Assembly: GCF_002994745.2 (NCBI RefSeq)
Contig: NC_037091.1
Location: forward strand, 6,906,001-6,970,000
DNA: 64,000 nucleotides
DNA from: Rosa chinensis
Lineage: Eukaryota; Streptophyta; Magnoliopsida; Rosales; Rosaceae
Reading direction: 5' to 3'
This document shows, piece by piece, positions 5,780 through 63,728 of the stretch. Numbering within the stretch: position 1 is the stretch's first letter; each line of letters opens with the position of its first letter. A program made the translations under genes and the position numbers. The notes below the pieces were generated by a model that saw only the letters and a program-made list of their open reading frames with translations, was not told the DNA's origin and did not search any database.

Positions 5780-6831
5780 ATATTGAGGATATGAGAAAGT
5801 TCTTACTACATTATTCTGACATCGCATCATAACCAAATTTAAATATAATATGCAACTTCAATTATCGCAATTATTCAATACGAAACAAAACAAGGAAGCT
5901 ATTTACCTTCCACTGGCTTAACAAAGACAGGGGACAAACAACAAGAGTGCCTCCCTTTGGTTTCAATGGGGCAGTTGTACCTGAATCTATCTTCCTCTTC
6001 TTTGTAATTTCGATATCACTAGAGCCTCTTTTACATGGTCTTGCAAGTATTAGAGCAATTGTCATCACAGTCTTCCGAAGTCCCATTGCATCTGCTAGGA
6101 TCTAGAATTTATAAAGAAACTCTTGATGTTAGAGACAAGATTTACATGATAATAGTCACTCCAATTCCCAAAGCACTAAAAGGTTTCCTCACAATCTAAA
6201 TATGTTTTTAAATATGGATTAGAAGGAAGATTGAAATACTCACTCCTCCTCTTGCCATCAGCGTTGCAATTGAAATTTTGTGGTTGCCTCCCCTGTGAAA
6301 ATGTTTACATAGATTGAAGAAGCCCTCCTGACAAATCATATATTCAGTTAAGTTGCAGGCTTGAAGCTATTCGAATTGACAATATATGTGGATCGTAGTT
6401 TGTGTGCAAAAGACTAGAGGAAGAAAAAAATTAATAAAGTACTGTTTTCCTTCTTCCACCTAGATTTTTAGCAAATTTAAGACACCGAGGAGAGGAGGAA
6501 CTGTATAATTACTGAAAGAGGAAGCATGTAGCGTCCACAAAGACTTATCTCCATCCGTAAAAATAGAATGGTACGGTGGATAAAGAAACTGCAAAAGATA
6601 TAGCACATTTACTCGACTAAACGCAAAACCAGTTATTTTATCCAAGGAATGCAGGTGGTAACAAATGGTAGGAGTTTTTTTTTTTTTTTGCTGAAGTCAA
6701 AGGTTAAAAGAGGCAAGGAGCCACCTTAACCTTTGAGAATTTATTAAAGAAGAAAGAAAAAATACACAAAGGGAGGGGGAACAAACCAAAACCTCCCATA
6801 CCAAACAGAAAACAGCTATAGGAAAAAACAA

Positions 6832-9800
6832 CTAATAAAAACAGAAATTCGGCATTCCCAAACTGTCACTCTGACAATGTCTGTCAATGAAAGGAGGAGC
6901 TAGATCCCACCAAGTCAGATCACTAGAAGTCGCACCGTAATTTGCTAATGCATCTGCAACACGATTCCCTTCTCAAAAGATATGTGAAGATCGGAATTGC
7001 ATTTGAGAAATACGATATAAACAATTACCCCACTCAATACAAAGCTGCCAAGGCACTAAATCAGGGGACTGCAGAAAGTTTAGAACTAGGGAAGAGTCAA
7101 CTTCTAGCCATACATGTTTCCAGTCCCTTACCCAAGCTAGCTCAATAGCCTTAATGACAGCCATTACCTCTGCCGCTATCGAACTAGGAATGTTATGATT
7201 AGAAGCAAAGGCACCAATGAAATCTCCTCTGTAGTCACGAAAAACGGCTCCATAACCACAACGGCCTGAATCTTGCTTCCAAGCACCGTCAGTATTTATT
7301 TTCACCCACCCAAAAGAAGGAGGGAACCAATTAACCTCAATAACTGACGGAGTACGGCGCGGCTTGCATTGAACTCCTAAATGCTTCAACACTTGAAGAT
7401 CAAGAAGAGAGTTGGTCATATAGCCGGAAGCAATGCGACTTGCAGATTGAACATGCCCAACAATTAAACGGCAAATTATTGCCACATTGAAACCCTGACC
7501 TTCATGCTTCATTTTATTCCTTGCTTGCCATATAAACCATAGAACAGTGGTAAAACATGCCAACCACAACTCCTTCAACTGAGGACTACGATTAACCAAT
7601 CCCACTTGCCATACCTCAATTAATGAACTGGGGACAGGACCTAACTCAAATTTAGAAAACATGCAGCACCAAATCTGGTTGGAATAAGAACATTCTAGAA
7701 AAATATGAGCTAATGATTCATAGTTCCTACCACATAGACCACACCTCGATGCCAAAGCCACTCCTCTTCTCTGTAAAAAATCGTCTGATAGTATCCTACC
7801 CCGTAGCACCTTCCAAGTCAGTAAAGACATTCTAGGAGTGATAAATTTAGACCATATACACTTACCAGAACTCATTGATGGAAAAGGTTGGAGTAGAAAC
7901 TGAAAAGCATTCTTTGCCGTGAGCTCCCCTGATGTAGCAGAAGACCAAATTACCTTATCCTCCGCTCAAGGATCCATAGCTAAGGGGACTTTTTCTATCA
8001 ACTCACACAATGCCGGGTAATGCAAATGAAGGAGATCAGGAATGACCCAAGAGCCATTACTAATATAATCAACCACATACCCTTGCAGATTGTCCACGAT
8101 AGTATGAGGTCCAAAGAAATCAATAATAGGCTTCCCCATAAAATTATCCCTCCAAAAAGAGATATTTGTACCCTGACCAATCAACCATTGTGCATTCTCC
8201 ATAACCACTGACCAAAACTTCTTCACCCAAGGCCATATGGATGAAGGAACATAAGAACGCCTCATCAAACCGCCACGCCAAAATCTATTTCAAATGAACA
8301 AACAACTCATGGCAGAAGAAGAATATATTTCCCAACACCTTTTTAGAAGTAGAGATTGATTAAGCAGAACTAGTTACCTGAGCCCCAACCCTCCTTCATC
8401 TACTGAAGCACAACAAGACTTCCATGAAACTAAAGGAACTCCACGTTTGTCAATTGAACCTAACCATAAGAAATTCCGGCACCAAACCTCTATCCGACGC
8501 AGCAAGGAAATCGGCCACTCATACACCTGGAAGCTATAAACAAGCATACTATAAATAACAGCCTTGATCAATTGAAGTCTTCCTGCCATTGATAAGAGAG
8601 AGCCCATCCAACTAGAAAATCACAATCGAATTTTGTCAACAATGGGCTGAAAGTACAAGGCTCTTGGCTTACCGCGAAAGATGGGAACACCCAAATAGGT
8701 AAAAGAGTCGGATCCAAGAGAAATTCCCAAAGTTGAAGCAATAGAATGACGTCGATGGTGTAGATGCTTGCTAATAAATACTTGAGATTTGGATTTATTA
8801 ATGAACTGCCCTGAAGCACGACTGCACGACCATACTTATCAAAGAAATGCATTACCCGATCAAGATTACGCTTGTCACCACGGCAGAACACTATAACATC
8901 ATCTGCGAATAAGACATGTGACGGTGCCCTAGTATTGCGGGGAGAAGAAATAAGCTTTAACTTTGTAGAGTTCACCATCTCTGTAAGGCCACGACTAAGG
9001 ACCTCCTCCGCCAAACAAAATAGTAAAGGAGATAAAGGGTCGCCCTGCCGCACATCTCTTCCACAAGAAAAATAACCCACTGGCCTTCCATGAATTAAGA
9101 GAGAAAGCTTTGCAGACTGAAGAAGGCTTTTTACCCATAAAACAAACTTTGGATGAAAACCAAAGGCTTCGAGGACTTTAAGAAGAAAACCCAAAGAGAT
9201 AGTATCAAAAGCTTTAGTTATGTCTATCTTGATAGCCACATTACCACCATAACACCTTGAATTCAAAAGATTAAAACATTCTGAAGTCATTACAATAGCA
9301 TCAGAAATATTTCGCCCCGGAACAAAAGCATGTTGTTGAGGAGAAATAATTCGAGAAGCCACTGAAGCAAGCCTAAGCGCCAAAATCTTCAGGATTATCT
9401 TGAAAACAAAGTTCGTAAGAGCAATAGGGCGGAATTGCTTAATAGAGTCGGCATGATCGACCTTCGGAATCAAGATAATAAGACCGGAATTGAAAGAATT
9501 CGTCAACTCACCCTGTGTAAAGAAATAACGAATTGCATTCACCACATCTACACCGACTATGTCCCAGCAAGAAATAAAGAAATGCCCATTAAAGCCATCA
9601 GGGCCAGGAGTGCTGTCCATATCCAAGGACTTCAATGCACCAAAAATTTCTTCGGCAGACGGAATTGAAGTGAGTGTCGTATTGTCATCATTAGTAACCA
9701 TTGAAGGAATCACCTTATCTACAAGCCCATTATCAGTAAAATCTGCATGACTAGCAAAAAGGTCCATATAATAGTCAATAATATGATTCTGGATAGATAT

Positions 9801-10987
9801 AGGATCCTCATAAACCTGATTATCATCTCGAAGAAAAGATATTGAAGACCTCATCCTGCGGGCACGACACTGAGCATGGAAAAAAGAAGTATTACGATCT
9901 CCTTCTGATAACCATCGCACCCTCGACTTCTCATGCCAGAATAGTTCTTGCAGTCTTAAAGACTCATTTAAATTGGCTTGAAGTTTGTTCTCTTTTGTAA
10001 AGTCATCATCAGTACCACCTGAAGAAATTGCATGTTGAAGAGCTTCTAAGGCATTTAGATCATAATTGACACGCTGATGTAGATCACCATAAACCTCCCA
10101 ATTCCATGTACGGAGAGCTTTAAGCAAGACCCTTAACTTATGCCAAAGGACCAATAGAGGGCAACCATGGGAAGAAATAGAAGACCAGCAATTCATGACA
10201 AAACCTTTAAAATCTCTATGCTCCAACCACATCTTACGAAACCGGAAGAGACTTTGACGAGCCCCTGTGGCCTTAGAGAAGGACATTAAGAGAGGATTAT
10301 GATCTAAGCAATGCCGAGGCAACGTACAACAATCATATTTGTCCCACACATCTAACCATGCTAAATTGGCTAGGCTTCTATCCAACTGCTGCTCAACCTT
10401 ACCTTGAACACCTCTTCTTTGGTACCCAAGTAAACTCAGCCCCTTTCGTGTCCACATGAACCAATTCACAGATGTCTACACATGATCGTTGACAAACAGG
10501 CGCTCCCCCTTTCTTTTCATGAGCCCCCAACACTGCATTGAAATCACCAAAAACTAACCATGGTCCAGTAACAAACCTGCCCTTAACATCAGCAATATCA
10601 GTCCACATCTACATCGTTCAGCTGCGTGGTGCGGGCATAGACTGAAGTGATAACACAATTTACAGTATCAAACACAACTTGTATAGAGACTTGCTGATCC
10701 GTCCTAGATAACACACGAACCCAGGGTACCATTGAAGATTTACATAAGATCCACAAGTTCGGCAAAGAAGAAGAACGATCATTAGTGCACACAGGCACCA
10801 TGCCCATGGAACGCCAAAAAGCAGCATGGATAGAACTTAGAGAAACAAAGGGCTCAACTATACATAACACTTCCGGATTATGAGTCCGAATAAATTCCTG
10901 TAAGACATTCTGCGTGGGGTCATTCGCAATGCCCCGAAGATTCCAATATAATATCTTCATCGGGAACTTCTTTAGAACGACGAACAT
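6832..10987 (-). pseudogene. LINE ORF2: endonuclease, reverse transcriptase, RNase H; broken
   Basis: The endonuclease begins at 10987 (MKILYWNLRGIANDP), with GPWLVFGDFNAVLG around 10550. The reverse transcriptase occupies most of 10469-8568, with the catalytic FADD box (VLFADDVIVFCRG) near 8915. A zf-RVT zinc region follows (CGLCG, HIFLEC near 7740), then RNase H with INTDGAW near 7300 and AAEVMAVIKAIELAW. Breaks: frame changes near 10600, 10400, 8600, 8370 and 7900, and a TGA at 6973-6975 where the family reads Arg (HIF-R-EGNRVADALA). After that TGA the frame stays open for 46 codons to a TAG at 6832-6834. Confidence 0.85.
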
Positions 10988-11029
10988 AAGCCTCCCTGCT
11001 TGCAGTCTGCGTTGCCCTTCTCATTGATT

Positions 11030-12433
11030 TACATTGACTCTTAGACAACACTTTAATAAAACCTTCCTCATTATCTGCACGCTCTGTTTCCTCGTACTAA
11101 TTTTCCATGGATATTGTGGTCACTTCAACCCGAGGCTGAGGAACACCCTCTTAAGCAGAACCCTCATTGACATTTCTGTCACAGCCACCATCATCATCGT
11201 TGCCACTGTGAATCCCATCTTCTTCCAATTGTTCAACCCCATTTGTTTGCTCAACATCTTCGTTTGCTTCCTGAGGTACAATAATAATTTGTTGATCACT
11301 GTCATGCACACTCCTCCCCACAATTTGTTGCACCACATTGTTCACCTGACCCGGTTGGTGGTCAGCCCCAATAATCACTCCATTTTCCTCAATGATTCCA
11401 TGATCAACAGGACCAAAAACTCCTTCAGTGCCATTCCCCAATACCACTTGGGGAACTTTAGAGAAAGAAGGAACCTCTCCTGGATCATTTGCCAATGGGG
11501 GAGTATTGTTTATGAATACTTGCTTCCCCGTCTCCTTCCTGGGTTGCTTAGAAACATAAACCTGCTTAAGTTTTGGACGACGTCGGGGCTTATGCTTGCG
11601 TGAGCGCCCCCTAACCCTCTCTATTGTCTCTGTTTACGGAGGACCAACAGGCTTCGTCACTAGCTTGCACGCTAAAACCACATGTCCCACATTACCACAA
11701 TGAAAACAATAATCCGGAAGGCGCTCGTACTCAATCTCCACCACCACAACCTCACCACTTTTCCTCTGAACAGTCAAGTCACAGGGAGGATCCTTGGAGA
11801 GGTCAATATCCACCAACACCCTAGCATAAAGCCCTAGCTTCCTCTCCATCATGTTCTGATCAATTTTCACTGGAACACCAATTCCATTAGCTATCTCAAA
11901 TAGTGTTAAAGGCTCCCAAAATTCCAGGCCTAAATTCCACAGTCGCACCCACACCTGAGCATTGGTGTTTCTTTGTTTGGCAGGAGAGAAGTTGGGTGTC
12001 CATCGCATGAATCTAAGAAGACCAGGCTTCAACACTATCGCCCCTTTCCCCCAAACCATCGACATCATCTCATCAGACTGAAATTTGAAGGTAAAATAGC
12101 CCTTCCCCATCGGAATGATGCTCCACTGACCAATCTCACCCCAAACCATACTCGTTTCTTGCGCAAATCAACTAGAGAATAGGGTTTTTCTTTAGTATCT
12201 AAATGGAGGCGAGCCAAAAGCATATGTCTGCACTTCTCTAAGCCCGATTGATAACCTTCCTCCGAGATCGTGACTGTTACTTTTCCATCCTGAATTTCAG
12301 GCACAGGCAGATGCACCACAGAAACCACAGGTTTCTCCACCGCCGCGGCAAACAAACGAGGCAGTTTTGGCGTCTCTACATCTAGAAATGACCAAGAACA
12401 GATCGTATCCTTTCCAGACATGGCGGATTCCAA
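11030..12433 (-). pseudogene. LINE ORF1 (DUF4283-type, CCHC zinc knuckle), frameshifted
   Basis: Nucleic-acid-binding ORF1 of the LINE. The reading frame starts at 12433 (MESAMSGKDTICSW, with a second Met at 12421). It shifts in the overlap near 12065-12149 into the frame that holds the DUF4283-like core and the knuckle CFHCGNVGHVVLAC (C-x2-C-x4-H-x4-C). That frame stops at 11634. An acidic tail continues in a third frame (11495-11151). In plant L1 elements ORF1 coats the RNA. At least two breaks make it non-functional as read. Confidence 0.8.
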
Positions 12434-12540
12434 GAAGCGAAGAAATTACAGCAGGAGTTTTAGCTGGCAGGAGTTGACTGTGCTGGTAACCCACACTTTT
12501 GGGTGAATGAGGATAGGACAACAAATGGTAGGAGTTATAC

Positions 12541-12674
12541 CTTACAGACAATATGATATCTTGCATCATAGATAAGAACTTTGGCGCACCCATAAACCGC
12601 CCAAGAATTTTAATCTTACCAGAATTCACAAGAAGAACAACACATTTTGCCCATTCCATTGGAAACCGACCAAT
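12541..12674 (-). pseudogene. Copy 1: HIRAN exon 2
   Basis: Matches exon 2 of copy 2 almost residue for residue: PMEWAKCVVLLVNSGKIKIL, then APKFLSMMQDIILSV. The acceptor (TGTAG before ATTGG, top end 12674) and donor (GT at 12539-12540) are intact. The LINE target duplication begins only two bases beyond the donor dinucleotide. Exon 1, which should lie just upstream on the minus strand, is instead inverted at 14312-14822. Confidence 0.85.
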
Positions 12675-12763
12675 CTACAAATCCAACCATTACAAACACC
12701 ACATCATTCTTTGGCATCCTAAAATAAACTAAATCGAAAAGAAAAAAATGTAAAAGGGATAAC

Positions 12764-13422
12764 TGTTGGAGAGGAAAGATCCCACATTGGAAAAGTGACA
12801 AATAAAATATAACTTATAAGTGGGTGGATCTCACCCAATTGTACCGAGGCCTTTTGTGATTAAAACCCAACACCTATCGGGTGGTTAAGTTGGGACAGTA
12901 TCGGTACAATGGTGGGCCACAGGCCACACTTGTCGCTGTTTAACATGGTATCAGAGCGGGTCTCTCTCCAATTGCTTCATCATCATGGACCTGGATATGG
13001 GTTCATTCATTAATTGATTCACCAATCTCCTCTCCAATCATGGACCTAGTTTGGGTTTATTAAATTGGCCATCGGAAGTTTCCGATTGGATTATTGCCAA
13101 GTGTCCGATGTGGGCCTTGGATTGTTATGTGATTGGTCAAGTCTCTAATGTGGGACTTGTGACCCGATTTCCAAAGTGGAATCGGGTTTGTCAATTAATT
13201 CCACGTGCATACCTAGAGCTAGGTTGCACGTGAGGGGGCGTGTTGGAGAGGAAAGATCCCACATTGGAAAAGTGACAAATAAAATATATCTTATAAGTGG
13301 GTGGATCTCACCCAATTGTACCGAGGCCTATTGTGATTAAAACCCAATACCTATCGGGTGGTTAAGTTGGGACAGTATCGGTACAATGGTGGGCCACAGG
13401 CCACACTTGTCGCTGTTTGACA
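12764..13422 (+). mobile_element. TRIM retroelement with two type-A LTRs
   Basis: Complete miniature LTR element. The 182-bp LTRs are at 12764-12945 and 13241-13422, both TGTTGGAGAGG...CA. A primer-binding site TGGTATCAGAGC, complementary to initiator Met tRNA, lies at 12946-12957. The 295-bp interior is non-coding, with a purine tract (GTGAGGGGGCG) just before the 3' LTR. The left flank is ATAAC (12759-12763). The matching ATAAC is not at its right end but, inverted, beside the other cluster at 14865-14869. The right LTR abuts a type-B LTR in inverse orientation with no base between. Confidence 0.9.
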
Positions 13423-13836
13423 TGATAAAGTAATCTGGAGTTCACATCCAAAACCAATTGGCAATGGATGGAGTGGCCCAAACCCTTATAAACCCATAGG
13501 CAATGTCCCATTTTTCCCATGTAGGATGTATATATTCTCAACACGCCCCCACACGTGTGGCGAATTTTCAAGCCATTCACGTGGACAACTTTGGGTGACG
13601 TGGAACCCGTGTGGCCATGAGGCATGCATACATGGGTAACCCGCTCTGATACCATGTTAAACAGCGACAAGTGTGGCCTGTGGCCCACCATTGTACAGAT
13701 ACTGTCCCAACTTCACCACCCGATAGGTGTTGGGTTTTAATCACAAAAGGCCTCGGTACAATTGGGTGAGATCCACCCACTTATAAGTTATATTTTATTT
13801 GTCACTTTTCCAATGTGGGATCTTTCCTCTCCAACA
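13423..13836 (-). mobile_element. Hybrid TRIM: 5' type-A LTR, 3' type-B LTR
   Basis: On the minus strand: type-A LTR (13836-13655, 182 bp), primer-binding site (13654-13643), a short interior of about 100 bp unlike that of the neighbour, a G-rich tract (TGTGGGGGCG), then a different 121-bp LTR called B here (13543-13423, TGTTGAGAATATATACATCC...TTATCA). A normal element has identical LTRs, so this is a recombinant. Its right flank CTTTT (13837-13841) is the reverse complement of AAAAG found beside the other hybrid at 15468-15472. Confidence 0.85.
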
Positions 13837-13841
13837 CTTTT

Positions 13842-14311
13842 TTGGTTAATTAATTAAGATACCCTAAGATATTAACTTTTTTTTTTTCGGCGACGGCTAA
13901 GGAGGTGAAGAAGTGCAAGTTTGCTAGTGCAAAACGTGCTTTGGACATGGTTGAGGATCAAGTTGGTGGTGCTTCGGCGGCGGAGGACACAACAATGGTT
14001 CTAGCAAGTATTGACCTCGAGAAATCTCCCTCGGGGTAGGGCTGTTTTAGAACTTCGGTCTCAAATTCCTAACATTGTCTTCTTAATTACTTGTGATTAA
14101 TGCTAGGTAATTTACTCGCGATAATCTGGGAAATTTTACATCTAAGTTGCTTTACGGTGGCGTTACATTGTTTCGCGCCAAAATTAGTCGCCAAAACCTT
14201 GACCCATTTCGCTGTTTGTTCACTTCCCCAAAATCTCCATCCACACGAATACCTCCTCTGTTTCACATTCATCTTCTTCGTACTTACTCTGCATCTGATC
14301 CATCATCATCC
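13842..14311. other. Displaced 5' flank of RAD5-like copy 1
   Basis: Lies in the inverted block. The part just before 14312 resembles the 5' flank of copy 2 (shared CTTCCCCAAA-TCTCC stretch). At 13886-14038 a plus-strand open stretch (KEVKKCKFASAKRALDMVED...) looks codon-like, but I recognise no family and it ends in TAG at 14037-14039; it may be a fragment of another gene. An E2F-type site is listed separately. Confidence 0.45.
14171..14180 (+). promoter_or_regulatory. E2F-like site upstream of RAD5-like exon 1 (copy 1)
   Basis: TTTCGCGCCA matches the plant E2F consensus TTTSSCGC on the plus strand, and GCGCCAAA at 14174-14181 matches it on the minus strand. It lies about 140 bp before the exon 1 ATG. 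The same place upstream of copy 2 (near 22300-22312) reads GCGCGCCAGA, one mismatch from the consensus. E2F control would fit an S-phase repair gene. This is inference from sequence only. Confidence 0.4.
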
Positions 14312-14822
14312 ATGTCTACGATCAACCAAGAAGAGTCGAATGAACCTGAAGCGTAAGAGCTTACAAAACAGTTAGGGTTCGATCAAAAGGGCCAAACCCA
14401 TTTCGACCCATCATATCAAGCAGCAAGTTCCCGACGCCCAACAAGGTTTGATCCAACTACAAGAGAATGTGATCAAAATCTGATCAGTAGTCGGGTCCGA
14501 AATACTCAAAAATCAGGCGAATAGAATCACAGGGGCTCGGATTTCCAGGTCTGAGGAGTCAGCTGCTAAGAGGGTGAAGAAGGAAGTTGCTGACTGTGAA
14601 TTGATTTCGGTCCGACATGTAAGACCTCAGAATTTGGAGGATGGCGATTTCAAGATTGAGCCGGATTGGTTCTTGGTGGGAAGCACATTCGTCACTGCGG
14701 TTTCGACTAGTAAAGGCATGAAATTATTGGACAATGAGATTGTTCATCTCTCTTTTCCTTCCTCAAATTCCAGCTACAAAACCTAATGGATTTTTCGTTT
14801 CTCGACGAAAAGATCAGGAGAG
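14312..14822 (+). pseudogene. Copy 1: exon 1, inverted
   Basis: The N-terminal exon of the RAD5-like protein, in opposite orientation to the rest of copy 1. It matches copy 2 from KRVKKEVADCE through RPQNLEDGDFKIEPDWFLVG to LDNEIVHLSFPSSNSSYKT. It then has TAA where copy 2 has CAA (Gln). After that stop the HIRAN sequence runs on without the stop of copy 2 (WIFRFSTKRSGE), to a donor GT at 14823. The first roughly 80 codons are diverged and carry further stops. Intron sequence continues to 14864 and then meets the TRIM cluster. Confidence 0.85.
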
Positions 14823-14869
14823 GTTTAATCTGTGTTTTCTGTTAGAACTTTTGTGTTAAACAAAGTTAT

Positions 14870-15467
14870 TGTTAAACAGCGACAAGTGTGGCTTGTGACC
14901 CACCATTATACCGATACTGTCCCAACTTAACCACCCGATAGGTGTTGGGTTTTAATCACAAAAGGCCTCGGTACAATTGGGTGAGATCCACCCACTTATA
15001 AGTTGTATTTTATTTGTCACTTTTCCAATGTGGGATCTTTCCTCTCCAACACGCCCCATCACGTGCAACCTAGCTCTAGGTATGCACGTGGAATTAATTG
15101 ACAAACCCGATTCCACATTGGAAATCGGGTCACAAGTCCCACATTAGAGACTTGACTAATCACATAACAATCCAAGGCCCACATCGGACACTTGGCAATA
15201 ATCCAATCGGAAACTTCCGATGACCAATTTAATGAACCTAAACAAGGTCCATGATTGGAGAGGAGATTGGTGAATCAATTAATGAATGAACCCATATCCA
15301 GGTCCATGATGACGAAGCAATTGGAGAGAGACCCGCTCCGATACCATGATAAAGTAATTTAGAGTTCACATCCAAAACCAATTGGCAATGGATGGAGTGG
15401 CCCAAACCCTTATAAACCCATAGGCAAGGTCCCATTTTTCCCATGTGGGATGTATATATTCTCAACA
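14870..15467 (-). mobile_element. Hybrid TRIM: 5' type-B LTR, 3' type-A LTR
   Basis: On the minus strand: type-B LTR (15467-15347, 121 bp), primer-binding site with one change (15346-15335, TGGTATCGGAGC), an interior matching that of the complete element at 12946-13240, then a type-A LTR (15051-14870, 182 bp). It is the reciprocal of the hybrid at 13423-13836. Left flank GTTAT (14865-14869) is the reverse complement of ATAAC at 12759-12763. Right flank is AAAAG (15468-15472). Confidence 0.85.
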
Positions 15468-15472
15468 AAAAG

Positions 15473-16792
15473 TACTTTGTTAAACTTTTCAACAAATTAT
15501 TAGATGAACTCGTCCAAATAATACACGTGCATACTTTTTTCATGTTATGCGCGTTACGTATTTTACTAATAATACAGTTTTATTAAATTATGATTGGGGT
15601 ACTGACAAAACAAAAGGATTTCTCAACTAAATGACCTTTATTGTTTTTTTTTTTTTTTGGTCAATGAAATCATTCATTAAAAACCAAAGGGGAAGAACCC
15701 AATGGAAAGAGCCCAAACAAGGCCCAATTACAAGTAAACCTAACAAGGAAAATTACTACTCAACCCAAATCCACATAGGTAGGGCAAAAGAGTGTAACCC
15801 TAAAAATTAAGAAAAACATCATCTCCTACAATACAACAGCCGCCACCCAAGCCATCGTGCCGCCGCTGCCCGGAGTAAAAAGGTAGGGAAAAGTGGCATA
15901 TCGAGGAGATAAAATCCGAATAACCGTTGCCAAAACAATCCCAAAATACAAATCCAATCGGAACCAAGGTAATGAGATGATAAATTGGAGCCAAACCCAC
16001 ACACTAACACTCTCTTCTCCACCAGAGAAACTCAAACCGGGAAGAAACCGACGCCACCAAAATGGGACAGAAGCCAATAGCAAAGAAAAAATCCAATGGT
16101 GAATGGGGGGTGAAACACCCATGCGTGAGCACTCATACACCTCTAGGTAAGTGTTTCTCACTTTTAAGAGGTAGCCATAAGAATCTTCAAGGAACAAGTC
16201 TTTGGTAGTTGGAGGGGAGTTTATGTGAGGAAATGGGTGAGGGGAATCATGGAGGTTTGTGGATTTGAAAATTTTCTAGGATGTTTGACAAAGAAGGAAG
16301 GAACAAAGTCCTCTAAATCTGAACATAAGTCAGGAAATCACCACAAAGGGGGTATAAAGCCACCACAGAGGATGTAAAGCCACCATAGAGGGTGTGAGAG
16401 AATCAACAGAGATGAAGTGAGTGCAAGACAGAGCCCCCCCCCCAAAAAAAAACTCTCAAGCCACTGATCAAGATCCAGAGGGATCACAATCTGGGGAAGA
16501 GAGAAGGGGGAGAGAGCTATAGTTCTAGATCTGGTTTCTTTCTCTAAGTTTAGAGAGAGAGGCTCTCGAATTAGAAAAGTACTAAACTTTCACGAGTGAT
16601 CAATAACATACCCAAACATATTAAAACACACCGTCAGACCCCTTACAAATCAAATTCTGTCACGAATCCGTTAAATAAAGAAAATTGGTATTGCTGAGCG
16701 CAAGATTTACAAAACTGGGGGATCTAAAGTTGCATAAAGAGCCCATAGTGTGACTAGTTGTTTCCAACTTATGTCCTATATATATGGATAAT
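15473..16792 (-). mobile_element. Likely retroposon remnant ending in a T-run, plus spacer
   Basis: A T-run at about 15643-15659 followed by GGTCAATGAAATCATTCATT resembles the 3' end of a poly(A)-tailed retroposon on the minus strand, similar in style to the LINE end at 6677. A weak minus-strand frame (15826-16197) matches nothing I know. Imperfect repeats of GTAAAGCCACCA(C/T)AGAG occur near 16350-16400 and a C-run near 16434. I found neither a target duplication nor a defined 5' end. Confidence 0.35.
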
Positions 16793-20892: not shown

Positions 20893-21767
20893 GTATGCAG
20901 ATTCAAACATGCACACAGCTATAAAACAGAGAAACACACAAGGTCAAACTCAGTCATGTTTGAATTTGACATGTAGTTTACAAACATATAATCAAGCCTA
21001 GTCAAACTACTCATTTGGTAGAAGAATTTATACTGGTAATTAAAACACAAGAAAAAGATGTGTGCGATGAAGTTATAATTCGGCTTGGCAACCATCTGAG
21101 AGAATCAGCAGAAACTATCCTTTTTTAGCAACTTAGACAAATGCAATTGAACAATACAGGTATAGCAACACAAAGTAGAAGCAAAAGCACAATATTAATA
21201 CAACAAAGGCCAACCATAAGTAGAGTTTGTCGGCCAGTTTTATATATTATCTAGAGTGCTGATATCAACACAACAGAATTAGATAATACCTTCTGATATG
21301 GTTGGAGTTTCAGTAATTTGAACAAGGTGAGAAAAGGATACGAATCCTCTCGCTTACATGAAGACACCTCAACAGCAGCGGAAATTGAATGATGAACATA
21401 AAAACTGAAATAAATCACAATTGGGTTTCAGTTAGTACCAAACACAGTTGATCTGTCCAAGAAATGCATGACCACAAATGGGTTGAAAGTTGAAACTATA
21501 CCTCAAAGACAATATGACCTCTTGCATCATAGATAGGAATTTCGGCGCACCATTAAACCGCCCAAGAACTTTAACCTTAACCGAATTCACAAGAGGAACA
21601 ACACATTTTGCCCATTCCATTGGAAACTGACCAATCTACAAAATCCAACCATTGCACACACCACATCATTCTTTGACATCCTAACTTAAACTAAATCGAA
21701 AAAATGTAACTTTGTTTGACTCAACAGCTCAAAAAGAAACTTAGGCAAACAGAAAACACAGATATAC

Positions 21768-33429: not shown

Positions 33430-35110
33430 GTAAAGTCACTGTTATATTCATGTCACTAGCAGGTTATATTGCATGTCACTGACCAAGTCACTATCAATCT
33501 CTGACCAAGTAACTGTTAACCTCAAGTCGCTGACAATGTCACTGTTATATCCATGTCACTGACCAAGTTACTGGCCAGGTCCCTAGTTAGTGAGGTCACT
33601 GGCCAGGTCACTGTTAACCTCAAGTCACTAGCTATTTCACTGTTAATCACATGTCACTAACCAAGTAACTGACCATGTCACTAACCAAGTAACTGTCAGT
33701 AGCCAAGTCACAAGTTAATAGCCAAGTCACTGTTAATCACATGTCACTAACTAAGTAACTGACCATGTCACTAACCAAGTAACTGTCAGTAGCCAAGTCA
33801 CAAGTTAATAGCCAAGTCACTATTAATCACATGTCACTAACCAAGTAACTGACCATGTCACTAACCAAGTAACTGTCAGTAGCCAAGTCACAAGTTAATA
33901 GCCAAGTCATTGTTAATCACATGTCACTAACCAAGTAACTGACCATGTCACTAACCAAGTAGTCACAAGTTAATAGCCAAGTCACTAGACCTGTAAATGG
34001 ACCGGATTTTGATCCGGACCCGCTTCAGATCCGTAGCTATTAAACGGGTTTGGATCGAACATTTTGATCCGTTGATCCGTTAATGATCCGAATCCGTTAA
34101 CCCGTTTAATAAACGGATCGGATTTGGATTTAGGTCCGTCGATTCGATCCGTTAATGATCCGACCCATTTTAGTAATAAAAAAATATTATTTTTTATTAA
34201 TATATTTTTTTTAAAAAAAATATAAAATATAAAATATAAAATATTAAAGATTTCTAATATTACTTTTTTGCAGAAATCTAAGAGGCAGTCTTCGTAATTT
34301 TATTTTTGATAATGTAATTTTATTTTTGGTGATACTCTTCATGTAGATCATGTTATTTTAATATTTTATTAATATCTTATGAGATATTATGATATAAATT
34401 TAATATTACTATTTAAAATTTAAAAATATTTGAAATTATAAACGGATCGGATTAGCGGATCGGGTATCCGTTAATCCGACGGATACGGATTTGGATCGAG
34501 GTATCAATGATCCGCCGGGTTAACGGAGCGGGTTTGGATCGAATTTTTTTTTTAGTAAACGGATTTGGATTTAGGTCGATCCGATCCGAACCCGGTCCAT
34601 TTACAGGCTTACAAGTCACTGTTAATCACATGTCACTAACCAAGTAACTGACCATGTCACTAACCAAGTAACTGTCAGTAGCCAAGTCACAAGTTAATAG
34701 CCATGTCACAATCATGAGCATGTCACTAACTAAGTAACTGACCATGTCACTAACCAAGTAACTGTCAGTAGCCAAGTCACAAGTTAATAGCCAACTCACC
34801 ATTAATCACATGTCACTAACTAAGTAACTGATCATGTCACTAATCAAGTAACTGTCAGTAGCCAATGACCTGGCCAGTGACTTAGTCAATGACATGAGTA
34901 TAAGTGTCTAATAGTGACATGGTCACTGACATACAATGTGACTTAGCCAGTAACTTGATCAGTGACATATTCATGACTGTGATATGACCAGTAACTTCAC
35001 CAGTGACATAGTCAATAACTTAAGGTTAACAATGACTTTGCCAGTGACCTCACTAACTAAGTACCTGGCCTGGCCAATGACTTAGTGACATGTGTATTAA
35101 GTGTGTAACA
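33430..35110. repeat. 90-bp-period minisatellite bounded by inverted repeats
   Basis: Central units start at TGTTAATCACATGTCACTAA at 33641, 33731, (33821), 33911, an exact 90-bp spacing. Each unit is built from shorter CAAGTCACT/CAAGTAACT words. Outer parts are inverted relative to each other: the stretch around 33545-33625 reappears reverse-complemented at about 35018-35095 (GTTAGTGAGGTCACTGGC versus GCCAGTGACCTCACTAAC). So it is a tandem array capped by inverted repeats, resembling a foldback-type element. A hAT element splits it at 33986-34611. Confidence 0.85.
33986..34611. mobile_element. hAT MITE inside the minisatellite
   Basis: Ends TAGACCTGTAAATGGACCGG and, read inward from the right, TAAGCCTGTAAATGGACCGG. 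Perfect 8-bp target duplication CAAGTCAC at 33978-33985 and 34612-34619. Subterminal zones repeat GATCCG/CGGATC words (GATCCGTTAATGATCCG). No coding capacity. Confidence 0.92.
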
Positions 35111-52162: not shown

Positions 52163-53322
52163 TAGGCCTGGCATTTAAACCCGTAACCCGCAAACCCGCA
52201 CGCTAAAAATCCGCACAAACCCGCCCGTTTATTAATCCGGGCTAAAAAAAGCCCGCACACAAAAAACCCGCAAATTAACGGGTTTTGCGGGCTAAACCCG
52301 TTGGAACCCATTAACTCAAAATCCTTCCCAAAAACCAATTACCCATACGGGGTTCCCCATTTTTTTATTTTTTTTCAACCAGGGCATTTTTATAATTTTT
52401 CTTATTCCCCATGAGGATCCGACAGTTGAATCTTCGTATAATTGTGAAAAGACGATTCAAAAGAAGATCCGTGAGGATTCGACCGTTGGATTGTCGTATA
52501 ATTTTGTGAGAATGATTCCAAAGGCGATCTGGGACGATCCAACCGCTGGATCTTCGTATAATTTTGCAAAGATGATTCAAAAGGTGATCCGTGAGGATCT
52601 AACCATTGGATCGTCTTATAATTTTGTAAGGATGATTCTAAGGGCGATCCGGGACTATCCAACTGTTGGATCTTCGTATAATTTTGAGAGGATGAACCTA
52701 AGGGCGATCTGTTAGGATCTGACCGTTGGATCATTGTATAAATCGGTAAAGATCATCATCTAGGTGATCCATGAGGATTTGACTGTTGGATCGTCGTATA
52801 ATTTTGAGAGGATGAAACTAAGGGCGATCCAAGAGGATCTGACCATTGGATCATCATATAAATCAGTAAAAATGATCCTCTAGGTGATCTGACCGTTGGA
52901 TCATCGTATAAAACGGTAAAGATGATCCTCTAGGTGATCTGTGAGGGTCCGACCATTGGATCGTCGTATAATTGTGATTTGTGAATTATTTTTTGTCGAA
53001 AAAGGAAAGGAAAAAAAATCTAAAAAGATAGAAAATAAAAAATTTCAAAATAGAAAACCAAAAAAGTTCATATAGAGAAAATGGCAAATGAGGGGTTATA
53101 TACATAAGTCTTAATTGGTTTTAATTGCTTTGATAAAAAGTTAAAAAAAAAAAAAAAAGTTTACGGGTTTTAACGGGTTCCAACGGAAAACCCGCAAATC
53201 CGCCGGGTTTGGCCCGCGAAACCCGTTAAGCTAACGGGTTCTTACCGGGTCGACCCATTAAGAACCCGGCCAGTTAAAAACCCGCACCGTACCCGCACTA
53301 TACCCGCACGTTGCCAGGCCTA
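52163..53322. mobile_element. hAT element upstream of the receptor kinase
   Basis: Ends TAGGCCTGGCATTTAAACCC and, read inward from the right, TAGGCCTGGCAACGTGCGGG. The 8-bp duplication ACCATCAC lies at 52155-52162 and 53323-53330, within a CACCAT repeat, so it is compatible rather than proof. Subterminal zones are full of AACCCGC/GCGGGTT words. No transposase. It begins 248 bp upstream of the receptor kinase ATG and may affect its promoter. Confidence 0.85.
52405..52975. repeat. About 60-bp tandem repeat inside the hAT element
   Basis: Roughly nine degenerate units containing GATCCGTGAGGATCTGACCG then TTGGATCGTCGTATAATTTT, period about 60 bp. Units produce open frames on both strands (for example 52402-52734) that are not real genes. 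Confidence 0.85.
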
Positions 53323-59906: not shown

Positions 59907-59974
<68 letters not shown>

Positions 59975-60340
59975 TCCTATCCAGAGCGAGGTTAGGGTTT
60001 AGGGTCACTTTTCGGTCGCATATCCACATCTCAACCGTTCAGTTTTTAGGTACTAATGAATAGATCATCTCTGCAAAATTTCAGCCAAATTGATGGTCTT
60101 TAAGGTATCTAACTCACTTAAACCAATGGACAGACTGAATCTGTCCAACCTGAACCGTACTAGCTTTAAGGCAGTTATCAATGTCTTAACGACCATCAAT
60201 TTGGCTGAAATTTTGTAGAGATGATTTATACATTAGTACCTAGAAACTAAACTGTTGAGATGTGGATATGCGACCAAAAAGTGACCCTAAACTCTAACAT
60301 CGCTCTGAAATTTCAAAGCGATGCCTCGCTCTGGATAGGA

Positions 60341-60395
<55 letters not shown>
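59907..60395. repeat. TA microsatellite split by a MITE
   Basis: TA runs at 59907-59970 and about 60345-60394 flank the foldback element. Confidence 0.85.
59971..60344. mobile_element. Foldback MITE with long inverted repeats
   Basis: 374 bp. The outer 21 bp are perfect inverted repeats (CAGATCCTATCCAGAGCGAG and its complement). Homology extends with mismatches about 150 bp inward on each side (GGTCGCATATCCACATCTCA; ATTTCAGCCAAATTGATGGT), leaving a short loop of about 75 bp. A transcript would fold into a near-complete hairpin. Superfamily is uncertain; Mutator-like foldback MITEs look like this. The target duplication is hidden in TA repeats. Confidence 0.85.
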
Positions 60396-61531: not shown

Positions 61532-62513
61532 GGATTAAATACTGCTTACTCCCTATACTTATAGGGTTTCGTCGTTTCAGTCCCTGACATTCGAATTTCA
61601 CCTAAAAACTCCTTGAACTCTCAATTTCCTCCCAATTAGTCCCTGCCGTCAACCTCCGTCCAAATTATCAGTTACATTGCTGATGTGGCATTCTTTTTAT
61701 GCAAAAATGTCTATTATACCCTCACCTACTATTTTTTTAATATTTATTTATTTTCTTTTCTCTTTTTTTTTCTTGTTCTATTTTTCTTCCATCTCTCTCC
61801 TCTATTTATCTTCATCTTCTTCTTCCAAAAACAAACCTAGCTCTCTCTCCATTTCCAGACCTTCGACAACACCAACGTCAGGTTAAAGATTTGAATTCAA
61901 CCCATTTGAATTCAATATCAGGCTAAAGATTTCAATCAACCCAAACAAACTAAAACTCAAAATTGACGAAACAAACAAGCAACATGGCTTCTCGGCAACA
62001 ACAGAAGCTAGATACAGAGCAATTGCAAGAGGCTACCATTTAATCACAAATTCAAAAGCTGAATTCAATCACAAATTTGAACATCAATACCATTTACCAT
62101 CCTAAACCCAAATTAGCGTCAAGGTTAGATTATCATAAAACTCAGATCGGACTGTAATTGGTATTTTTGCAGAAGCACTCGAAGATCCCAATCCAAAAGA
62201 ACCAGAATTGAAACCTTAAATCCCCAAATCAACCACAAAAGAATCAAACTTTGGGAATCAGCAATTATTTAGATCAAGAAATGCAACTCGAAAAAGAAGA
62301 AGAAAGACTTGCCAAGTTGTCGAGATTAGAGGAGTCTCCGGTTGGGGAAGTGAAGATGAAAGTGATGGAGAAGAAGAAGAAGAAGAAGATGGAAGTGAAC
62401 ATGACTGACCATCAATTCAACCTCCACACTATTACTGCCCAAAACCGAAAATTCATCATGTAAAGGAATCCAATTCAACCAACAGATATAGCAATGAGAG
62501 AAAGCAATAATAC

Positions 62514-62921
62514 CTTTCATATTGGGGCTACTACTAGCTCCAAACCCAGTTAACAAATCATCGAAAGCCGCCGGCACACCCTTGCGAGAGCTTTTCGACG
62601 ACGCCGTCTCAGCCTTGTCATCAAACCCACTTACCCGCCGCGGCGGCGACGCCACTGTCGAGAAGAAAATATCGTTTGCAGTGGAGCTCTTCAGCCCCGC
62701 TCCGCCAGGCCAGAATCGGCCACCTTGGAGGAGGAATCAGTGGGCCCACCACCACCGTACACGGAATCCAAGTTCAAAGCTTCGAAATTGATGGAGAACC
62801 TGGCCGAGCCGTCGAAGATCTTCTCAAAGTCTTGGGCTTTTAGGGCTTCAAAGATCTGGTCGTGATCGTCGGAGAAGGACTCGTCAAAGGAATTTGAGGT
62901 GCGAGTTGATCTGGAGGAGGG
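62514..62921 (-). pseudogene. Captured auxilin-like gene fragment
   Basis: Reads SNSFDESFSDDHDQIFEALK then INFEALNLDSVYGGGGP. It changes frame near LAERG, then VASPPRRVSGFDDKAETASS and KGVPAAFDDLLTGFGASSSP, ending at a donor (AAAG|GTATTATT, GT at 62512-62513). FDDL-GFG and SVYGG words are typical of the N-terminal region of plant auxilin-like J-domain proteins that act in clathrin uncoating. The J domain is absent. Same strand as the exonuclease piece, but out of frame with it. Confidence 0.6.
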
Positions 62922-63162
62922 TCCAATCGAGCAGGAAGACGACGACGACCCAGTCGCCGGTGAGTTCAGGGCTTAGTTGGCAGGCAAGTTGGAGGAGAGG
63001 GACGTTTGGGTAAGTGGGGTGGTGGGAGCGGAGGAGATTCCACTCGGCGTCGAGGGCAATGATGGCGGACCAAATCAAGGAGGTGGTTAGGTGAGTGAAC
63101 TCGGAAGAATCGATAGAGGAGACGAAGAGGGTTTTCAAGGGCATTGGGTCATGCGGATCCAT
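62922..63162 (-). pseudogene. Captured 3'-5' exonuclease N-terminal fragment
   Basis: ATG at 63162-63160 opens MDPHDPMPLKTLFVSSIDSS, then EFTHLTTSLIWSAIIALDAE and PNVPLLQLACQ, to VVFLLDW. It resembles plant DnaQ-like 3'-5' exonuclease domain proteins (At5g24340 type), in which DAEW is the Exo I motif with the metal-binding Asp and Glu. Only the N-terminal part is present. It then joins out of frame to the auxilin-like piece. Identification is from remembered family pattern. Confidence 0.6.
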
Positions 63163-63728
63163 GGAAGAAGAAGAGGTCAAAAGGAAAAAGAACAAAAAGA
63201 AAAGAGAGAAAGATATAAAAAAATTAAAAGAAAAAAATTAATTGAGGGTAAAATAGACATTTCAGCATAAACTAGATGCCACGTCAACAATTTAACGGTC
63301 AATTTGGACGGAGCTTGACGGCAGGGACGAAATGGGAGGAAATTGAGAGTTCAGGGACTTTTTAGGTTAAATTCAAAGGTCAGGGACTGAAACGATGAAA
63401 CCTTAAAAGTATAGGGAGTAAACGGTAATTAACTCTATTTTTTTTATATATAAAGCATTAGAATTAGTTGAGGTAGTGCTCTAGATGGCTAGCTTGATGC
63501 ATATACATATATGCATGGAAACTTAGACAACATCTGTCCATTTCATTATTGGTTCCGATTGTCTCTGAATTACTGTGTGTTTGGAAAATTATTATTTTTG
63601 AGGGAAGTTGTCAGCATCATCCGGTTGCCCTTTCATTGGACTGATTTTGATTTTGGCTGATAATTTGAAAAAACTTACTGCAATTTCAGAGAAGAAATAC
63701 ATACAAAGACTAGGCGCACATAATCGCG

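Follow-up and report, generated by a model that had tools for sequence, protein, structure and literature searches.

Here we describe a short inversion in a duplicated RAD5B-like gene of the rose Rosa chinensis, in which exon 1 lies turned around between two clusters of terminal-repeat retrotransposons in miniature (TRIMs). The window, by which we mean the whole 64,000-nucleotide stretch analysed (C4:6906001-6970000, contig NC_037091.1), holds two RAD5B-like copies, and about 100 kb away lies a sister block, block D (C4 7,008,341-7,023,529), in which copy 1 and copy 2 are both present again. Comparison of the two blocks suggests that exon 1 of the window's copy 1 was very probably inverted by a crossover between TRIM insertions lying in opposite orientation, after the block had been duplicated. 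Genome searches covered the 515-Mb assembly with its 53 contigs, and for comparisons of sister blocks and gene copies 100 kb were added on either side of the window, giving a 264-kb stretch.

Order, breakpoints and exchanged target-site duplications

A preliminary description of this DNA had exon 1 of copy 1 turned relative to its own exon 2, and the strands of the tblastn matches confirm it: the R. chinensis protein P0008 matches exon 1 at 14349-14825 on the plus strand and exon 2 at 12674-12525 on the minus strand. Once the inversion is undone, copy 1 shares its strand with copy 2. The host DNA that was turned amounts to 1.0 kb, and the full structure with its TRIM clusters to 2.7 kb.

12541-12674, minus strand: exon 2 of RAD5B-like copy 1, in its original orientation (tblastn places P0008 residues 193-242 at 12674-12525; the limit 12541 is that of the preliminary description)
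14312-14822, plus strand: exon 1 of RAD5B-like copy 1, inverted (tblastn of P0008 and P0007; exon limits likewise from the preliminary description)
13842-14864, no strand assigned: inverted host segment, comprising some 470 bp ahead of the ATG, exon 1 and the beginning of intron 1 (alignment to block D)

Long terminal repeats (LTRs) and short internal regions (int1, int2) make up the two clusters. On the left, A1-int1-A2 on the plus strand is followed by the reverse complements of B1, int2 and A3; on the right stand the reverse complements of A4, int1 and B2. The elements were delimited by BLAST.

12764-12945, plus strand: LTR-A copy A1
12946-13240, plus strand: int1 of the left cluster, starting TGGTATCAGAGC and ending GAGGGGGCG
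13241-13422, plus strand: LTR-A copy A2, its 3' end abutting the 3' end of B1 (tail-to-tail)
13422-13543, minus strand: LTR-B copy B1 (BLAST edges, with a 1-base overlap with A2)
13544-13654, minus strand: int2, as in the B-int2-B TRIM family
13655-13836, minus strand: LTR-A copy A3
14870-15051, minus strand: LTR-A copy A4
15052-15346, minus strand: int1 of the right cluster
15346-15467, minus strand: LTR-B copy B2
12939-13422, plus strand: left arm of inverted repeat I1, inside which the crossover most likely fell
14870-15353, minus strand: right arm of inverted repeat I1

The two arms of I1, one within each cluster, are inverted, 484 nt long and 96% identical.

Judged from their sequence, the clusters are made of TRIMs from two families. 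The first has an LTR-A of 182 bp (TGTTGGAG...TTTAACA) and an A-int1-A unit of about 660 bp; the second has an LTR-B of about 122 bp (TGTTGAGA...TTTATCA) and a B-int2 unit of about 233 bp. Sequence of the TGGTATCAGAGC type, which we take to be the primer-binding site for a methionine tRNA, follows both LTR-A and LTR-B, and GAGGGGGCG is presumably the polypurine tract. The TRIM class is defined with an upper size limit, and gag-pol could not fit into internal regions as short as these (295 and 111 bp). The earlier claim that both breakpoints are TRIM clusters therefore needs amending in one part: TRIMs do lie at both, and they belong to two families, not one. Cassandra, another TRIM, was set aside, since 12500-15700 has no 5S rRNA match at E up to 1; the sole match of that search was a sub-threshold small nucleolar RNA family outside the elements.

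Copies of the A-int-A kind are common in the genome; the A-family search scored 40 of 923 candidates, and 20 places were drawn from those 40. LTR-A is accompanied by an internal region at 18 of them, including one three-LTR array (L047), and stands alone at the other two (L035, L039), both with a perfect target-site duplication (TSD). A perfect 5-bp TSD lies at the BLAST edges in 16 of the 20; L032 is perfect after a one-base shift, L038 agrees at 4 of 5 bases, and L044 and L046 have no match at the edges. LTR-B or int2 was found at none of these 20 places. The B-int2 family is abundant in its own right, with at least 83 matches (best 40 of 1141 candidates scored), and among the scored candidates it is often arrayed in tandem, repeating every 233 bp or so.

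Each cluster is bordered on both sides by a 5-bp sequence whose partner stands at the other cluster.

12759-12763, plus strand: ATAAC, half a of split TSD 1, preceding TGTTGGAG; single copy in block D
14865-14869, minus strand: GTTAT (reverse complement of ATAAC), half b of split TSD 1, preceding TGTTAAAC
13837-13841, minus strand: CTTTT (reverse complement of AAAAG), half a of split TSD 2, after CCAACA; target not present in block D
15468-15472, plus strand: AAAAG, half b of split TSD 2, after CTCAACA
21703-21747, minus strand: unbroken intron 1 stretch of copy 2, the reference for empty site 1 (alignment to copy 1)

These four flanks are exact, base for base, as the preliminary description had reported them. 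When they are compared as 6 pairs in 2 orientations, 5 of 5 bases agree only for the two claimed reverse-complement pairs, and the other 10 comparisons give 0-3 of 5 bases equal; with the 5-mer frequencies of the window, equality of random 5-mers has p=0.0015, and both pairs together p=2.3e-6. Turning 13842-14864 back restores ATAAC/ATAAC and AAAAG/AAAAG, and the flanks match in no other pairing. The intron beside ATAAC lines up with copy 2, again as proposed, the joined flank (TAAC followed by TTTGTTT) being the same in copy 2 at 21707.

An identical exchange of TSDs would appear if the assembly had set the segment between the inverted arms in the wrong direction and the plant itself were un-inverted, and the assembled sequence alone does not distinguish a flip within the 484-nt, 96% identical arms. 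We consider such an error very improbable: the 264-kb stretch is without any N, and a structure of 2.7 kb is shorter than a typical long read.

The sister block and the state of copy 1

An un-inverted relative, which had been set as a check on the inversion, is present inside the same genome. Block D has exons 1 and 2 of copy 1 in collinear order and lacks the TRIMs as well as the L1-type long interspersed nuclear element (LINE) seen in the window. The flanking DNA matches block D in direct orientation (12587-12764 to 7012525-7012683 and 15481-15645 to 7013795-7013965, both +/+), and the pieces of the segment match it in the opposite one (13841-14031 to 7013798-7013610 and 14418-14869 to 7013130-7012678, both +/-, as well as 14269-14422). 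The halves of site 1 join in block D at 7012678-7012683, and those of site 2 at 7013795-7013798, in each case one direct and one reversed. At site 1 the joined flanks align to block D through GATAACTTTGTTTAACACAA, with one ATAAC only, and this 20-mer occurs once on the plus strand in the 30 kb around block D and is absent from both strands of the window. TAACTTTGTTT is unbroken also in copy 2 (21707) and in the P0008 gene (C4 6864661). Host bases were neither lost nor duplicated at the site 1 junction, and both TSD halves are intact.

These comparisons bear on the idea that exon 1 never belonged to copy 1 and was inserted separately beside exon 2, a separate duplication that the preliminary description had itself named as what would refute it. 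In its favour, copy 1 does mix P0008-type and P0006-type exons. We give this reading next to no probability, and the collinear block D sets it aside, unless D itself descended from the window: exons 1-3 are P0008-type and collinear in D, where exons 1 and 2 are contiguous, and intron 1 is continuous over the junction.

Because block D is without either TRIM, both insertions postdate the separation of the blocks, and the inversion, which requires both, followed them. Window and block D differ by substitutions at 3.5-5.4% in four of five stretches and at 8.0% in the exon-1 stretch. The LTR pairs differ by 2.2% (A1-A4, K 0.022), 3.3% (A2-A3, 0.034) and 3.3% (B1-B2, 0.0335), which is below the block divergence and consistent with insertion after duplication; within 13 sampled A elements, LTR pairs differ by 0-5.5%. 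With the rate that PMC5659011 quotes, 1.3e-8 substitutions per site per year, the three pairs give about 0.9-1.3 million years, a rough figure based on 4-6 changes each.

The L1-type LINE occupies window 6677-12519 in intron 2 of copy 1 and is absent from block D. It has RVT_1, zf-RVT, RVT_3, DUF4283 and CCHC domains, and its flanks at 6660-6676 and 12520-12536 form a perfect 17-bp TSD, AACAAATGGTAGGAGTT.

The preliminary description also had the inversion disrupting a gene, and in this part it does not hold as written: the sequence does not show that a working gene was hit. Copy 1 is a hybrid whose exons 1-3 are P0008-type, with exon 3 ending NYTVPPLLGVLNLLKI as in P0008, and which is P0006-type from 6326 onward and carries stops; between the two parts, P0008 residues 266-386 have no match among those listed. 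Block D has the same fusion, in a continuous alignment (5780-6612 to 7011633-7012457), and both copy 1 and block D have an altered Walker A motif, GLRKT instead of GLGKT. Because these features are common to both blocks, copy 1 was probably crippled already before the block duplication and the arrival of the TRIMs, and its probable loss of function makes the effect of the inversion probably neutral; on the same grounds, destruction of a functional gene by the inversion is not taken as demonstrated. A later exchange between the blocks could also have spread GLRKT and the fusion. Exon 1 of the window has 3 in-frame stops relative to P0008, which could have arisen before or after the inversion, and its ATG at 14312 is in a different frame from the remainder. 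Exon 1 of block D is open, and the downstream exons of D have stops of their own.

The fusion itself, of P0008-type exons 1-3 to P0006-type exons, is visible at window 6326-6612 and at C4 7012094-7012457. More widely, at least six RAD5B-like copies or fragments are clustered at C4 6845942-7023406, among them the P0008 gene (C4 6859635-6865290) and the P0001 gene (C4 7018036-7023406), and a segmental duplication of the RAD5B-like gene pair relates block D to window 692-22333 in the same orientation. In a protein search, Rosa proteins were the top matches of the conceptual protein from copy 2. Against the 264-kb stretch, counted per exon piece, the R. chinensis proteins P0001 and P0008 are identical at 929/930 and 998/998 residues, and those of R. 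sericea reach 844/908 (P0002) and 916/958 (P0007), which identifies the plant as R. chinensis. Elsewhere in the window, at 33432-35070, 52409-52990, 59921-60394 and 61535-63432, lie local tandem and inverted repeats unrelated to the inversion.

A proposed crossover between inverted TRIMs and the probable composite at site 2

A block with two tandem RAD5B-like copies, seen today as the window and block D, was duplicated on C4, and from there we propose the following course of events. An A-family TRIM would then have entered intron 1 of the window's copy 1 with the TSD ATAAC, its empty site being visible, and a composite A+B TRIM with inverted parts would have entered some 470 bp ahead of the start codon with the TSD AAAAG, at a target that is presumed. 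A crossover in the LTR-A/int1 homology would finally have turned around 1.0 kb of host DNA, including exon 1, and exchanged the halves of the TSDs. Recombination between inverted TRIMs, as first proposed, is strongly supported by the exchanged TSDs, by block D and by the inverted arms, and from these we infer the crossover as the molecular event.

Several observations weigh against this account. AAAAG is a common 5-mer, making up 0.27% of 5-mers. Block D has the ancestral order at site 2, yet the 16 bp CAAAAAAGTACTTTGT, which holds AAAAG, are missing there, so that a single AAAAG target has to be inferred and an extra deletion in D or insertion in the window is required. The margin of age is narrow, since two LTR pairs differ by 3.3% and one of the block stretches by 3.5%. 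The LTR-A copies, moreover, pair against the prediction of one crossover (differences of 182: A1-A3 2, A1-A4 4, A1-A2 4, A2-A4 8), so that they neither place the crossover point nor show chimeric LTRs, and private changes fail to phase the LTRs. No third copy showing the older state of CAAAAAAGTACTTTGT was found in the 264-kb stretch; comparison of the P0008 gene with site 2 matched nothing past 6865391 at E 1e-3, and that of the upstream regions of copies 1 and 2 gave no informative result.

The 16-bp difference at site 2 might be the trace of a repair, the segment having then been turned by break-and-copy repair (template switching between inverted TRIMs in replication) or by end joining, not by reciprocal crossover. 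We judge this improbable: site 1 shows no loss or gain of host bases, the TSD halves are exact, and a crossover requires no extra assumption.

If the preferred crossover is undone within the 484-nt arms, site 1 receives A1-int1-A4, a simple element at ATAAC, and site 2 receives A3-int2-B1 tail-to-tail with the reverse complement of B2-int1-A2 at AAAAG. This would have been the composite before the inversion, its exact form being a reconstruction, and a single TSD flanks it only with the inversion undone. The tail-to-tail junction of A2 and B1 occurs once in the genome (at most 2 mismatches). When up to 3 mismatches are allowed, the B-to-int1 junction has 14 matches, and the one in the window alone is exact; the A-to-int2 junction has 87, of which 3 are exact and many are simply the ordinary A-to-int1 junction. 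A simple nested insertion of B in A was set aside, as A2 and B1 abut with zero bases between them and no 5-bp duplication.

The crossover may also have come in two steps, with a solo LTR-A at site 1 and, at site 2, a larger composite of A-int1-A tail-to-tail with a mixed array B-int1-A-int2-B; the first flip would have run through LTR-A against LTR-A and the second, inside the left cluster, through the 201-bp A1/A3 arms. Such an array exists on C1 (L051, with the TSD GAAAA), the A1/A3 arms are 98.5% identical over 201 nt, and lone LTR-A copies with perfect TSDs are found at 2 of the 20 sampled places. We regard this version of the crossover as possible, if on the unlikely side, for it takes two inversions where one suffices; no sequence signal separates the versions, and both keep the identical exon 1 inversion.

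Other TRIM arrays are present in the genome. At C3:30660900-30661750 (L050), positions 87-756 hold an inverted head-to-head dimer of the B family, its central LTRs truncated, with the TSD AACAT. The mixed array of L051 occupies positions 43-870 of C1:7051200-7052200, its TSD being read from the flanks with a one-base overhang of the B query allowed. LTR-A adjoins int2 at three further places (L052-L054). On C5 near 59.11 Mb (L005, 1-2166) two A-family TRIMs face opposite ways with about 950 bp between them; the complete member retains ACAAC as its own TSD (read in L033), which makes this an inverted pair with its TSD unexchanged. Perhaps TRIMs of the two families join into mixed and inverted composites, each integrating as a unit, and the inverted ones are inversion-prone sites that recurrently reshuffle nearby host exons; the window would then record one such event, along with another flip within the composite. 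We regard this wider proposal as doubtful.

Comparison with known systems

This rose genome contains TRIM composites of inverted and of mixed-family make-up, which put inverted repeats beside exons; the loss of a working gene is not what the inversion demonstrates. A TRIM-made inversion was not met in a literature search of titles and abstract openings, whose coverage was partial, with subscription journals mostly outside it, so that absence is not proven.

The Rosaceae AACA/TGTT elements have TG..TT or AA..CA ends and 4-6 bp TSDs, and two pear TRIM families have internal regions of 1641-2042 bp (PMC5659011). Like them, the window elements are non-autonomous, TRIM-type and found in Rosaceae; unlike them, they have TG..CA ends, internal regions of 111-295 bp and 5-bp TSDs, and their LTR ends and sizes rule out that identity.

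In maize, Zma-SMART forms tandem TRIM arrays, including two inverted TRIMs that share one TSD (PMC4717578). With the inversion undone, the rose composite at site 2 is likewise made of inverted TRIMs within one TSD (AAAAG), as is the inverted B-family dimer on C3 with its single TSD AACAT. The rose composite mixes two TRIM families, whereas the examples in Fig. 2 of PMC4717578 are all of the Zma-SMART subfamily.

A close likeness is to the Galileo-made inversion 2z3 of Drosophila buzzatii, attributed to ectopic recombination, with inverted copies at the breakpoints, exchanged TSDs, single targets before the inversion and chimeric copies (PMC2775673). On sequence grounds, the rose event appears to work in the same way and to belong to the same known kind of inversion: here too the copies lie in opposite orientation and the reverse-complement TSDs are exchanged. 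Galileo is a DNA transposon of the P superfamily and the rose elements are TRIM retroelements; a single target in the old order is found here at one of the two sites, and chimeric copies are proven in Galileo, whereas the private LTR changes do not phase them here. Unlike 2z3, the rose inversion lies within a single gene copy, where it turned 1.0 kb of host DNA, and has a sister block within its own genome. Since the inverted locus and its un-inverted, TRIM-free sister stand in the same genome, the breakpoints and one exact target can be read at base level, and with them the order of events, from duplication through insertions to inversion.

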